IMG/VR virus record: IMGVR_UViG_3300009507_004363
Span: 1-28,445 of that record
DNA from: a virus
Length of the DNA: 28,445 bases
Direction: 5' to 3' (one strand)
Made by a program: the position numbers and the translations under genes. Below the pieces are notes generated by a model. That model searched no databases. It saw only the letters and a list, made by a program, of their open reading frames with translations, and was not told the origin of the DNA. This document shows, in pieces, positions 2,999-11,595 of this stretch. Every line of letters starts with the position of its first letter. Positions within the stretch are counted from its first letter, which is position 1.

Positions 2999-4018
2999 AT
3001 GCAAAACAAACAAAACAAAATCGTAACTCCCGAATTACTAAAGAAAATTAGAAAAAAAATAGGCTTAACGCAAAAAGAAGCCGGTGAGTCTGTTAATACC
3101 AGCATGCGCGTTTGGCAGAGATATGAAGCGCCAACATCAGCAACAAGCTCAGCTCGAATACCAGAGACAACTGCAGAATTATTTTGTTTGAAGCATGGAT
3201 TGCCATATCCGCCAGTACAAAATGCAAAGCTAAGCAAATTAATCACTGTACTCGGTGGTTCCGGCAGCGGCTGTTCTCTCCTTGCGATGGATTTGGCAAT
3301 ATTATTAATGCAGGACGATTACGATGTTTTGATTTTAACTGATGAGTACCAGGCATCTGGAATTTACTCGAACAAGTCCATTGATGAGAACCTTCCTTTT
3401 CCAAAGGTAAAAAACTTAAAAGGCATAGAAAGCAGAGCAATTGATGGGCCTTTTGCTGAGATTTCTGAAGTAATAAAGGGAAATGAAACAAGCCTAAATG
3501 ATATTGTTCCCCTTTATGACTTCTGCATAATGGATGTTAATGACGAAATTGCAAAACGAGAGTTAGCCAAACGTTCTCCAGACTTGATTTTGACACCGGT
3601 ACTTATGCGTGATCATACAGCTCGATTGCTTAAGGGAATTGAAAAAACGTTTACCATATTGTCTGAGTCATTACCGGCCGATACTAAAAGCATATATAAA
3701 ATTTGTATGTTAGGAGTAAAGCAGCCGTATTCTGACAATTTCGAGCAAAGTTATTTAAATGGAGAGTCAGTCGAGGATTGTGAAGCAAGCATCAATTGGT
3801 GTACTAAAGACCAGGAAGCCAAACTTATGAAATTAAAATCTGTTTGTGGAAATAACATTCTGGATAGTTTTACCAGTGCTGCTTATCAAGGATATGTCAC
3901 TAAAACGCAGTCTGAAAAAGGGTATAGCATTGTACATAAGCACCCTAATTCATTTGCGGTATTTGAACTAAACTCAATAAAAAATGAAATACTAAAAATA
4001 TTAAGGGTTAAGGCTTAG
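2999..4018 (+). CDS. XRE-type HTH fused to a ParA-like domain with degenerate P-loop
   Basis: The 339-aa protein has two parts. Residues 9-72 look like an XRE helix-turn-helix (LLKKIRKKIGLTQKEAGESVNTSMRVWQRYE). From residue 80 it resembles the ParA/MinD NTPase fold: beta strand LITVLGG, then GGSGSGCS at 86-93, then a helix (LLAMDLAILL) and a strand (YDVLILTD). The GxxxxGK[ST] frame is kept but the invariant Lys is Cys92. A Walker-B-like YDFCIMDV is at 173-180, followed by SPDLILTPVLMRD, which resembles the usual ParA strand. It is probably a nucleotide-independent DNA-binding protein; partition, regulation or defence are all open. The gene is plus-strand between integrase and the leftward operon, so it is transcribed apart from the early genes and could be expressed in the lysogen. 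The ribosome site is poor. Confidence 0.75.
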   Translation: MQNKQNKIVTPELLKKIRKKIGLTQKEAGESVNTSMRVWQRYEAPTSATSSARIPETTAELFCLKHGLPYPPVQNAKLSKLITVLGGSGSGCSLLAMDLAILLMQDDYDVLILTDEYQASGIYSNKSIDENLPFPKVKNLKGIESRAIDGPFAEISEVIKGNETSLNDIVPLYDFCIMDVNDEIAKRELAKRSPDLILTPVLMRDHTARLLKGIEKTFTILSESLPADTKSIYKICMLGVKQPYSDNFEQSYLNGESVEDCEASINWCTKDQEAKLMKLKSVCGNNILDSFTSAAYQGYVTKTQSEKGYSIVHKHPNSFAVFELNSIKNEILKILRVKA

Positions 4019-4030: not shown

Positions 4031-4275
4031 GCCTTATCCCATTCTGCTCTTGCTTCTAAGCGCTGCTTATCAATTAACTTAGCTAAGTCATCAACGTGAA
4101 CGAACCATGGTGACTTTTGACCGGTACCTACTTGGAATGCAGGAATAGGCAACGAAGCTGACTTTGCTTTTTGTATGGCAGTATGACGAGAACAAGCGAA
4201 GTAAGTTTCGCAGATCTCTTCAAGAGGAATTGCCGTCTTTTCATATTGAGCCATTAATAAAAGTGATGTTTTCAT
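4024..4275 (-). CDS. PrtN-family (pyocin activator-like) protein
   Basis: The 83-aa protein has the PrtN family pattern: an N-terminal LLMAQYEKTAIPLEEICETYF, a middle HTAIQKAKSASLPIPAFQ and a C-terminal PWFVHVDDLAKLIDKQR. PrtN in Pseudomonas activates pyocin genes; small homologues are common in gammaproteobacterial prophages close to the integrase. Here it is the last gene of the leftward operon, the place lambda uses for xis, so a Xis-like role in excision or control of the recombinase is as plausible as transcription activation. The start overlaps the stop of the preceding gene by ATGA. The family call is fairly firm, the role is inference. Confidence 0.8.
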   Translation of the reverse strand: MKTSLLLMAQYEKTAIPLEEICETYFACSRHTAIQKAKSASLPIPAFQVGTGQKSPWFVHVDDLAKLIDKQRLEARAEWDKAA

Positions 4276-9273: not shown

Positions 9274-9666
9274 TTAAGCTGATAGGAATTTATTTTGAAG
9301 TTCGCGCATCTTTCTAATCCGCGCATTGCTAGTTCTAGTTGTTCTAAAACTCCTTTCAACGTCTAGGTTGTTAACATTAAGTAAGCAGATAAATATGCAT
9401 GCGGTATAGCGCAGAACACCTTGCTTTATTGCTTGGTGAACTGTTTCTCGCATGGAAAACGTGTTGAATTTAAAACTCAGGTCGTTGCAAGCCTTTTTAA
9501 CAGTCGTAACTTTCACGCCCATTTCTTCTGCTATGCGTTTTTGCGGGAACCCCTGGGCGACAAAAAGCAATGTTCTTGCTTGTTGAGTTGGCAGATGTGA
9601 GTGCGGTTTTGTATCAACCTCAATACCATCTAATTGAAACCCTGTTGTTGTTTTTATTGTTTTCAT
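9274..9666 (-). CDS. LuxR-type (GerE) HTH regulator, first gene of the leftward operon
   Basis: Residues 25-84 form a GerE helix-turn-helix: LPTQQARTLLFVAQGFPQKRIAEEMGVKVTTVK and a recognition-helix tail reaching the MRETVHQAIKQGVL segment typical of LuxR domains. No receiver or autoinducer domain precedes it, only about 24 residues. It is the first gene from the leftward promoter, where lambda has N. It probably controls early or late phage genes. The start is uncertain: ATG 9672 or 9666, with no good ribosome site for either, and the operator region overlaps immediately upstream. Confidence 0.8.
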   Translation of the reverse strand: MKTIKTTTGFQLDGIEVDTKPHSHLPTQQARTLLFVAQGFPQKRIAEEMGVKVTTVKKACNDLSFKFNTFSMRETVHQAIKQGVLRYTACIFICLLNVNNLDVERSFRTTRTSNARIRKMRELQNKFLSA

Positions 9667-9677
9667 AATCATGCTTA

Positions 9678-9744
9678 ACAATTTAAGTTGTTAAACAGAA
9701 TACAAGTAAAATTGTACAAGTCAATAAAAAACAATAAATTTTGT
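9678..9744. promoter_or_regulatory. Left operator cluster (three ACAA-N6-TTGT sites)
   Basis: Three 14-bp sites share the inverted ACAA-N6-TTGT frame: 9678-9691 (ACAATTTAAGTTGT), 9702-9715 (ACAAGTAAAATTGT) and 9731-9744 (ACAATAAATTTTGT). Centre spacings are 24 and 29 bases. The first is identical to one of the three sites at the rightward promoter. The outer flanks of the first extend the palindrome to TTAACAA/TTGTTAA. The middle site covers the spacer of the leftward promoter, so occupancy should block RNA polymerase. The presumed ligand is the repressor at 10604-11242. Confidence 0.82.
9697..9724 (-). promoter_or_regulatory. Leftward early promoter (PL)
   Basis: On the minus strand: TTGACT (9724-9719), a 16-base spacer, TATTCT (9702-9697). 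Five of six -35 bases match consensus. The expected start near 9690 leaves an 18-24 base leader without a Shine-Dalgarno sequence before the LuxR-type gene. The spacer holds the middle operator. Confidence 0.75.
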
Positions 9745-9776
9745 AAATCGAATTTAAATGAAAAGGAAACAGGCAT

Positions 9777-9801
9777 AAAAAAAACCGCCGAAAAGGCGGT
9801 T
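9777..9801 (-). terminator. Terminator of the repressor/zinc-ribbon operon
   Basis: A perfect 7-bp GC-rich stem (AACCGCC, 9783-9789, with GGCGGTT, 9795-9801), 5-base loop and eight Us on the minus strand. It lies 25 bases beyond the zinc-ribbon gene stop and insulates PL from the immunity operon. Confidence 0.9.
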
Positions 9802-9825
9802 AATATTTAGCAGAATAGTTAGTAA

Positions 9826-10581
9826 TTATTTCTCGGTGTAAGTCGTCCCATCGAGGTTAAGCTCAATCCGTTTGGTTTCTGTTACAACTGCATTGAACGA
9901 GTTGGTCCCCCGATATGTGGTTTGAACAGTTATATGATCACCTCTATCCCAGTATAAAGTTTCGACATGTTCGTAACTGTCAGGGTTCTTCATTTGTTGT
10001 TTGATCACTTTTTCAAGCTGAATATGTGAACCATCCCAAGAACTAAATTGTTTCTCAATCAGCTTAGTTCTATCGAGTTTCGCTTGATAGTGTTCTATTT
10101 TATCCTGGTACATTTGGTTGTTCGGCGCTAATAGAGATAAATTTTTATAGATGTCTAAGTTCTTTTTAGCATCAGCAGCTGGAATACTTAATGCTTCTGA
10201 TAAAAGTATTTTCTCTTTAGCCTGGTTAACAATAACTAATAAATCTTTATCTCTAACATTTTTATATTTAGAGGCCTGTGATGTAATCTCTGTATAGTTT
10301 TCTTGTTCCAATAACTGGTTTAACTCGATAATTATTGCTTTTTTGTTTGACTTAAACTCCTCTAAAAACTGTACGTTTCGTTTTTCCTGAGCTTGTTTTT
10401 GTTTTGCCGACTCTTGATCAGCTATAATTGTACTAAACATATAAGAGCCAATCGACACGACTATCAACCAAGTGAATAGAGATGTTTTCTTTTTTACTTT
10501 TTGAGGAGCGCCGCACTGCGGACACGTAGCGGCTTTTTTACTAACTTTGTTACCACAGACTTTACACTTAACAAGAGACAT
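9826..10581 (-). CDS. Zinc-ribbon membrane protein in the immunity operon (rex position)
   Basis: I chose ATG 10581 (251 aa) for its AAGGA site and because MSLVKCKVCGNKVSKKAATC starts cleanly with a zinc ribbon (Cys6, Cys9, Cys20, Cys23). A Lys-rich stretch and one membrane span (about 34-53) follow, then a long helical region (EQYTEITSQ-type tetratricopeptide-like helices, 60-165) and a C-terminal beta-rich domain (WDGSHIQLEKVIKQQMKNP to the end) containing the HVETLYWDRGDHITVQTTYRG segment. It is 22 bases after the repressor gene with its own terminator, so it should be expressed in the lysogen. Lysogenic conversion, most obviously superinfection exclusion, is a reasonable inference from location; the biochemical role is unknown. 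Confidence 0.75.
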   Translation of the reverse strand: MSLVKCKVCGNKVSKKAATCPQCGAPQKVKKKTSLFTWLIVVSIGSYMFSTIIADQESAKQKQAQEKRNVQFLEEFKSNKKAIIIELNQLLEQENYTEITSQASKYKNVRDKDLLVIVNQAKEKILLSEALSIPAADAKKNLDIYKNLSLLAPNNQMYQDKIEHYQAKLDRTKLIEKQFSSWDGSHIQLEKVIKQQMKNPDSYEHVETLYWDRGDHITVQTTYRGTNSFNAVVTETKRIELNLDGTTYTEK

Positions 10582-10603
10582 ATAATTTTCCTTTAATTTC
10601 CCT

Positions 10604-11242
10604 TTAATTTCTTTTTCTATAACTCGCAACCACAACACCAATAATCACAGCATTAGGCATCATTTCAAAGATTGGGTTAGGCCAGTTAGTGTTTAATGCT
10701 TTTAGATATTTCTGAGAGCCGTCAATAATGAGCTGCTTAAATGTTGCTTCTTCATTCCCTTGTTGCCGAACCACCACGCATGAACCATGGCGAGCCTCAA
10801 CTAAAGGGTCAACAAAAATGATTTCGCCTTCAATATAATCAGGCCACATAGACTCACCAAAAACTTTTAACGCAAATGCGTTTTCACTATGTTTGTCGGG
10901 ACAAGGGTAAAACTCGTCTGCATCATCAGGTTTAAAAAGATGACTAATATCAGGCCAAACAGCGGCCTTGCCCCAACTTATTAGTGGGACGTTAGATTTA
11001 AACCTGGCTAATTCTGGAGTGTTGCTCTCAGGTAATTCCATATAACCACTACCAGACTCTAACCAGTCTGCAGAAACGTTTAGAAACCTAGCGATAGCGA
11101 CAAGGCTTCTTGGTTTTAAAGTTTTCCCAGAGCAAATAGCATGAACTGACTGCTGACTAGAACCGACAGCAGTTGCAACCTTTTCTTGGGTTATCCCTTT
11201 TAACTCTAAAACATAATTTAAGCGCTTAGCTAATGTATCCAT
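10604..11242 (-). CDS. CI/C2-type phage repressor (XRE HTH + S24 LexA-like domain)
   Basis: The 212-aa protein has an XRE helix-turn-helix at 5-60 (LNYVLELKGITQEKVATAVGSSQQSVHAI) and a LexA-like peptidase domain: catalytic Ser131 in GESMWPDY and Lys169 in EEATFKQL. The cleavage region reads ISWGKAAVW, so the expected Ala-Gly is Ala93-Ala94. It should keep the prophage silent by binding the six ACAA-N6-TTGT operators, and RecA-stimulated self-cleavage should induce it. It is divergent from the Cro-like gene, with three operators between. Confidence 0.93.
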   Translation of the reverse strand: MDTLAKRLNYVLELKGITQEKVATAVGSSQQSVHAICSGKTLKPRSLVAIARFLNVSADWLESGSGYMELPESNTPELARFKSNVPLISWGKAAVWPDISHLFKPDDADEFYPCPDKHSENAFALKVFGESMWPDYIEGEIIFVDPLVEARHGSCVVVRQQGNEEATFKQLIIDGSQKYLKALNTNWPNPIFEMMPNAVIIGVVVASYRKRN

Positions 11243-11268
11243 AAATATTACTTTTTTAGGTTTTTTTT

Positions 11269-11297
11269 ATTCTACAAAAAGATTTGTACAATAAAAA
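11269..11297 (-). promoter_or_regulatory. Candidate repressor promoter (PRM-like)
   Basis: On the minus strand: weak TTTTTA (11297-11292), 17-base spacer, TAGAAT (11274-11269). The operator at 11274-11287 fills the spacer and that at 11298-11311 sits directly behind the -35, the geometry of lambda PRM with OR3 and OR2. The poor -35 fits a promoter that needs activation. Confidence 0.5.
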
Positions 11298-11333
11298 ACA
11301 ATATAAATTGTTGATAAATACAATTTAAGTTGT
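11274..11333. promoter_or_regulatory. Right operator cluster (three ACAA-N6-TTGT sites)
   Basis: Sites: 11274-11287 (ACAAAAAGATTTGT), 11298-11311 (ACAATATAAATTGT), 11320-11333 (ACAATTTAAGTTGT). Centre spacings are 24 and 22 bases, about two helical turns, suitable for cooperative dimers on one face. The last is identical to the first left-operator site and lies in the spacer of the rightward promoter; the middle touches its -35; the outermost lies in the repressor promoter. Confidence 0.85.
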
Positions 11334-11338
11334 ATTCT
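11311..11338 (+). promoter_or_regulatory. Rightward early promoter (PR)
   Basis: TTGATA (11311-11316), 16-base spacer, TATTCT (11333-11338). Spacer length and -10 are the same as at the leftward promoter. The predicted start is close to 11345, so the GGAGG at 11343-11347 is at or before the RNA 5' end and may not serve as a ribosome site. Confidence 0.75.
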
Positions 11339-11370: not shown

Positions 11371-11595
11371 ATGAATTCTTCCCCTTCATTAAGAAAGGCA
11401 ATTGCCAAATCAGGCGGACAGGTAAAACTTGCTAGTGCCATAAATACATCACAGCAAAACATTTCAAATTGGTTGAAGTCCGGCAAAGTTGCCGCGGACA
11501 AAGTAATCCCTATTGAACGAGAAACTGGCGTTTCAAGGCATGAGTTGCGGCCTGACATTTTCCCACCAGAAGACGAACAAATGAAAGCAGCTTGA
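11371..11595 (+). CDS. Cro/YdaS-like HTH regulator
   Basis: The 74-aa protein is a compact helix-turn-helix: LRKAIAKSGGQVKLASAIN, then TSQQNISNWLKSGKVAADKVIPIERETGVSRHELRPDIFP, the signature of the YdaS/Cro family in prophages. It is the first rightward gene and should compete with the repressor for the operators. The GGAGG upstream is 23 bases from this ATG, too far to be its Shine-Dalgarno; an ATT start at 11359 in the same frame would be 11 bases away and is possible but unproven. Confidence 0.9.
   Translation: MNSSPSLRKAIAKSGGQVKLASAINTSQQNISNWLKSGKVAADKVIPIERETGVSRHELRPDIFPPEDEQMKAA

Follow-up and report, generated by a model that had tools for sequence, protein, structure and literature searches.

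The six ACAA-N6-TTGT sites that bracket the cI operon of this virus record (28,445 bp, analysed whole and called the window here), three at each end, are very probably OL1-OL3 and OR1-OR3 of a lambdoid switch between lysis and lysogeny with operators of the 434 class, in which CI would read the ACAA half-sites with Gln28-Gln29 and a YdaS-type Cro would compete for the same sites. Divergent cI (HTH plus S24 autoprotease) and cro genes were found with operators between them, which is the lambdoid CI/Cro layout. Three features of the 434 class were present (14-bp sites, three each at OL and OR, and a Gln28-Gln29 helix), and two features of strict imm434 were absent (Gln33 in CI and a Cro homologous to 434 Cro). 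Coordinates are given in Table 1.

Table 1. Features of the immunity region, in window coordinates.
Feature	Coordinates	Strand	Basis
Sigma-70 region 4-like HTH protein (PF08281, phrog_3282), first PL-operon gene	9274..9666	-	profile; start conserved in relatives
OL1 operator ACAATTTAAGTTGT	9678..9691		exact match; aligned with OL1 of L074, L028, L049 and L133
PL promoter TTGACT-16-TATTCT	9697..9724	-	consensus scan, 9/12; kept in 4 relatives
OL2 operator ACAAGTAAAATTGT	9702..9715		exact match; alignment with relatives
OL3 operator ACAATAAATTTTGT	9731..9744		exact match; alignment with relatives
Intrinsic terminator-like hairpin	9783..9801	-	sequence scan
Zinc-ribbon protein with hydrophobic stretch, rex/hex position downstream of cI	9826..10581	-	sequence scan
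cI, HTH_3 + peptidase S24 repressor, 434-like recognition helix SQQS	10604..11242	-	profile and PDB matches
Predicted PRM -10 TAGAAT, weak -35	11269..11274	-	inference; alignment of relatives
OR3 operator ACAAAAAGATTTGT	11274..11287		exact match; alignment with relatives
OR2 operator ACAATATAAATTGT	11298..11311		exact match; coordinates
PR promoter TTGATA-16-TATTCT	11311..11338	+	consensus scan, 9/12
OR1 operator ACAATTTAAGTTGT	11320..11333		exact match; alignment with relatives
cro, YdaS/Xfaso1-Cro type (PF15943), recognition helix begins Gln28-Gln29	11371..11595	+	profile (E 3e-17), sequence, fold

Perfect matches to ACAA-N6-TTGT were counted across the whole record. Six were returned, all in the two clusters and each where the sequence-only reading had placed it, with 0 further matches elsewhere. 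ACAATTTAAGTTGT was present twice, as OL1 and as OR1, so that one identical site does lie at each end as had been claimed; the two copies are not equivalent in promoter position. Dinucleotide shuffles (n = 100) contained a mean of 1.14 sites, with six or more in 1/100, and six or more were found in 0.15% of first-order Markov windows (n = 2,000). Triples within 70 bp occurred in 0/2,000 of these Markov windows, and 0/20,000 regions simulated under a local 79% AT model held three sites. The earlier claim of a match stronger than chance in AT-rich DNA therefore holds for the clusters. One-mismatch sites were not enriched (23 found, 26 expected), which leaves clustering alone as the unusual feature. 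Single sites were expected by chance about 1.1-1.3 times per window; at this density (~1 per 25 kb) well over 100 would be expected in a host genome, and a host-wide count of single sites is thus uninformative and not decisive as a test. The inner bases of the window operators were T-rich (often ACAATTT). The promoter-operator elements of the two ends formed a 31-nt inverted repeat (77%), and a 23-nt stretch was common to OL3 and OR2; both would fit an old duplication.

Both early promoters were, as previously read, TTGAxx/TATTCT pairs with a 16-base spacer filled by one operator. Promoter-like sites were not in excess in the consensus scan overall, so support for PL and PR rests on conservation: in 4 relatives OL2 was likewise framed by a PL with TTGAC(A/T) as its -35 and, after a 16-bp spacer, TATTCT or TATCTT as its -10, and the PR -35 of relatives was weaker (TTGTAA). 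The PR spacer was occupied by the outermost site, OR1, and the PL spacer by the middle site, OL2, whose final T doubles as the opening T of the -10 hexamer; the left and right ends are therefore not mirror images. OL1 spanned about -1 to +13 relative to the predicted start of PL and OL3 was sited upstream of the PL -35. At the right end, OR2 reached one base into the PR -35. By coordinates its centre lay ~42.5 bp upstream of where PRM is predicted to start, and the PRM -10 abutted OR3, in relatives likewise. In lambda, OR1 lies in the PR spacer, OR2 lies at the PR -35 and at about -42 from PRM, and CI activates PRM from such an OR2-like place ~42 bp upstream of the start. The window resembles lambda in these positions and in the general OL/OR plan, and is unlike it in operator sequence and repressor helix. 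The right-end sites thus stand in the places of OR1, OR2 and OR3, and the description of a lambda-like double operator was upheld, with three sites each at PL and PR flanking cI, a divergent cro and an OR2/OR3 geometry that fits the predicted PRM. The weak -35 of the putative PRM would suit activation by CI from OR2, and the hairpin downstream would terminate the PRM operon ahead of OL.

The window CI had PDB matches to the repressors of lambda and 434. Its recognition helix (SQQS) aligned with that of 434 (TQQS), with Gln28-Gln29 common to both, at 39% identity only between the two proteins. The 434 consensus was derived here from the records of 434 and Shigella phage Sf6, both sequence and annotation. 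Coliphage 434 carried the perfect sites ACAAGAAAGTTTGT and ACAAGATACATTGT plus three at OL, and ACAARNNNNRTTGT is annotated in the Sf6 record as 'identical to 434'; both phages have ACAA-N6-TTGT operators in threes at OL and OR, as in the window. Because these operators are identical in form and the window CI carries the Gln28-Gln29 of 434, the consensus cannot be called new, as the sequence-only reading had called it. Further likenesses to 434 were an OR1-OR2 spacing of 22 in both, similar OL spacings (29/24 in the window, 31/23 in 434), the QQS helix, the S24 repressor and an accessory gene downstream of cI. Unlike in 434, OR3 was a perfect site (imperfect in 434), the PR spacer contained OR1, CI had Ala33, Cro was YdaS-type rather than HTH_3, and no N protein was recognised in the first gene at PL. 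Residue 33 was Ala or Gly in close relatives and is Gln in 434. In the 434 complex, Gln33 is the third base-contacting CI residue. Together with the T-rich inner bases, Ala or Gly at this position suggests that fine specificity may differ from that of 434. In Escherichia phage 434B (L011, OL657227.1), OL1-OL3 are annotated at 3099-3180, inside cI, and ACAA-N6-TTGT OL sites were located at 4043-4110, ~0.9 kb from the annotated OL; the annotation looks misplaced, and motif positions were used for comparison instead of annotated features.

The cleavage loop of the window CI (residues ~90-96) read WGKAAVW, where 6 aligned relatives had QAG or RAG. The scissile dipeptide was therefore Ala-Ala instead of Ala-Gly, with the catalytic Ser131 and Lys169 kept. 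Such a dipeptide may alter SOS induction, and the prophage may be poorly inducible.

No DNA similarity to the region was found in the phage collection searched, and a CI search of a genome contig collection returned distant relatives only. IMG/VR relatives (L005/L074, L028, L049, L064 and L133) had CIs 71-75% identical to that of the window where measured, and shared its operators and their register with the promoters, with 3+3 sites wherever a contig covered both ends. The 3+3 arrangement was complete in L005/L074, L028 and L049, with OR spacing of 24/22 and a PL -35/-10 pair with a 16-bp spacer. OR1 was identical letter for letter in the window, L074, L028, L049 and L064 (5/5 family members shown). 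Flanks had diverged and sites and promoters were conserved; the OL-OR distance was 1.6 kb in the window and 2.3-3.2 kb in the relatives, whose Cro was YdaS-type with SQQN.

CI homologues were gathered in viral contigs by C-terminal patterns, blind to helix and operator (80 loci). The 49 distinct HTH sequences compared included those of the window and L005. At least two perfect sites were found upstream of cI for 11/12 CIs with Gln28-Gln29 and for 0/37 without it (Fisher 4e-10, a value that overstates independence because the 49 sequences form a handful of clades). Gln-Gln helices are thus associated with ACAA-N6-TTGT sites; the Gln-Gln CIs, though not independent lineages, span the 434 and window groups together with L166 and L192, and the sole exception among the 12 was L205. 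Pseudoalteromonas phage PY3 (CI TQQT, Cro KQGH) had 0 perfect sites. A separate scan of viral contigs for triple sites returned at least 118 stretches. Among the matches listed, 62 adjoined a 434-type Cro, 19 a YdaS-type Cro, 2 a CI only and 35 neither CI nor Cro, the last including fragments at contig ends and arrays of evenly spaced repeats that have no switch gene.

The window Cro was nearest Xfaso1 Cro by sequence and by predicted fold (pLDDT 86.8; Z 11.9 and rmsd 1.1 over 63 residues against PDB 3bd1), and Gln28 was the first residue of helix 3 in the predicted model. Its start, GGTAT(C/T)AAAATG, was conserved in relatives. Xfaso1 Cro and CP-933P YdaS (PDB 8co2) share its PF15943 family and fold and are likewise divergent from cI; the Xfaso1 helix starts RQSA, unlike the Gln-Gln of the window. 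434 Cro (HTH_3) belongs to another family. Gln28 was invariant in 16/16 YdaS-type Cros (window + 15), all beside site clusters. When phages were picked by Cro similarity alone, Pseudomonas phage Haddon (SQQM) had 2 perfect sites and 1 one-mismatch site, and the others, with Cros lacking xQQx, had 0 sites. Some Cros beside triple sites had KQAH or KQGH in place of xQQx. These comparisons leave evenly balanced the proposal that two Cro lineages (434 HTH_3 and YdaS/Xfaso1) independently read ACAA-N6-TTGT through a Gln that opens the recognition helix, operator specificity being kept while the Cro gene was exchanged. According to Hall et al. 2005, as cited in PMC4488713, Cro recognition helices follow half-site-matched rules; the finding therefore extends a known principle and is not a new one.

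The KQAH and KQGH Cros bear on an alternative in which CI alone binds the sites, the YdaS-type Cro having a target of its own that differs from them or overlaps them, as may hold for CP-933P YdaS. The operator consensus of CP-933P (GTTTAGTAA half) is not that of the window; there YdaS acts as Cro with footprints that overlap those of its CI counterpart PaaR2, two repeat types occur side by side, and the footprints do not settle which exact sequence each protein binds (PMC8630535). The invariant Gln28 argues against such a division in the window, as does the contrast between Haddon and the site-blind YdaS-type Cros that lack both xQQx and sites. A scan of the OL-OR interval for a second repeat family with operator-like layout also found none, and we consider the alternative unlikely.

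Another alternative is a truly new operator specificity with no tie to 434, to which the T-rich inner bases and Ala or Gly at CI residue 33 might point, but 434 has the same outer four bases in each half-site and the same Gln28-Gln29 pair, which makes this quite improbable. Chance in an AT-rich sequence, or a repeat array with no operator role, was also considered, since single sites are common and some viral-contig triples are regular repeats for which no neighbouring switch gene was found. That reading was ruled out by the clustering, given the lack of triples in the 2,000 simulated windows, and by the conservation of sites and promoters in relatives with diverged flanks; we give it next to no credence. 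Operators of a 434-class switch are thus the preferred reading.

In such a switch, CI dimers would grip the ACAA half-sites in the prophage through Gln28-Gln29 of the recognition helix. CI on OR1, OR2 and OL would shut PR and PL by occupying the promoter spacers, and from OR2 it would activate PRM and with it cI; ordered site filling and cooperative binding would be part of this putative scheme. Looping between the clusters, 1.6 kb apart, is possible. On loss of CI, Cro, whose recognition helix starts Gln-Gln, would compete for the same sites and, by analogy with lambda, probably prefers OR3.

Other genes of the window were also noted. The PL-proximal gene occupies the place of lambda N, with its start just downstream of PL. 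The N antiterminator is the first PL gene in lambda and 434, not in all lambdoid phages. The first PL gene, the one gene of the PL operon scanned against profile families, matched no N family, and N proteins diverge fast. An integrase gene directly adjoins a dusA-like gene (tRNA-dihydrouridine synthase, judged from sequence) at 489-2670, which suggests integration at dusA.

The switch is largely of an ordinary, long-known kind and its novelty is low; a Cro from another family is the one twist, and its exchange is the part of the finding worth bench work. The textbook 434 operator is no speciality of coliphages: it recurs in many viral contigs with two Cro families. A 434-type operator is predictable from two repressor residues, and the operators of unannotated temperate phages, with possible cross-immunity among them, thereby become predictable from sequence.
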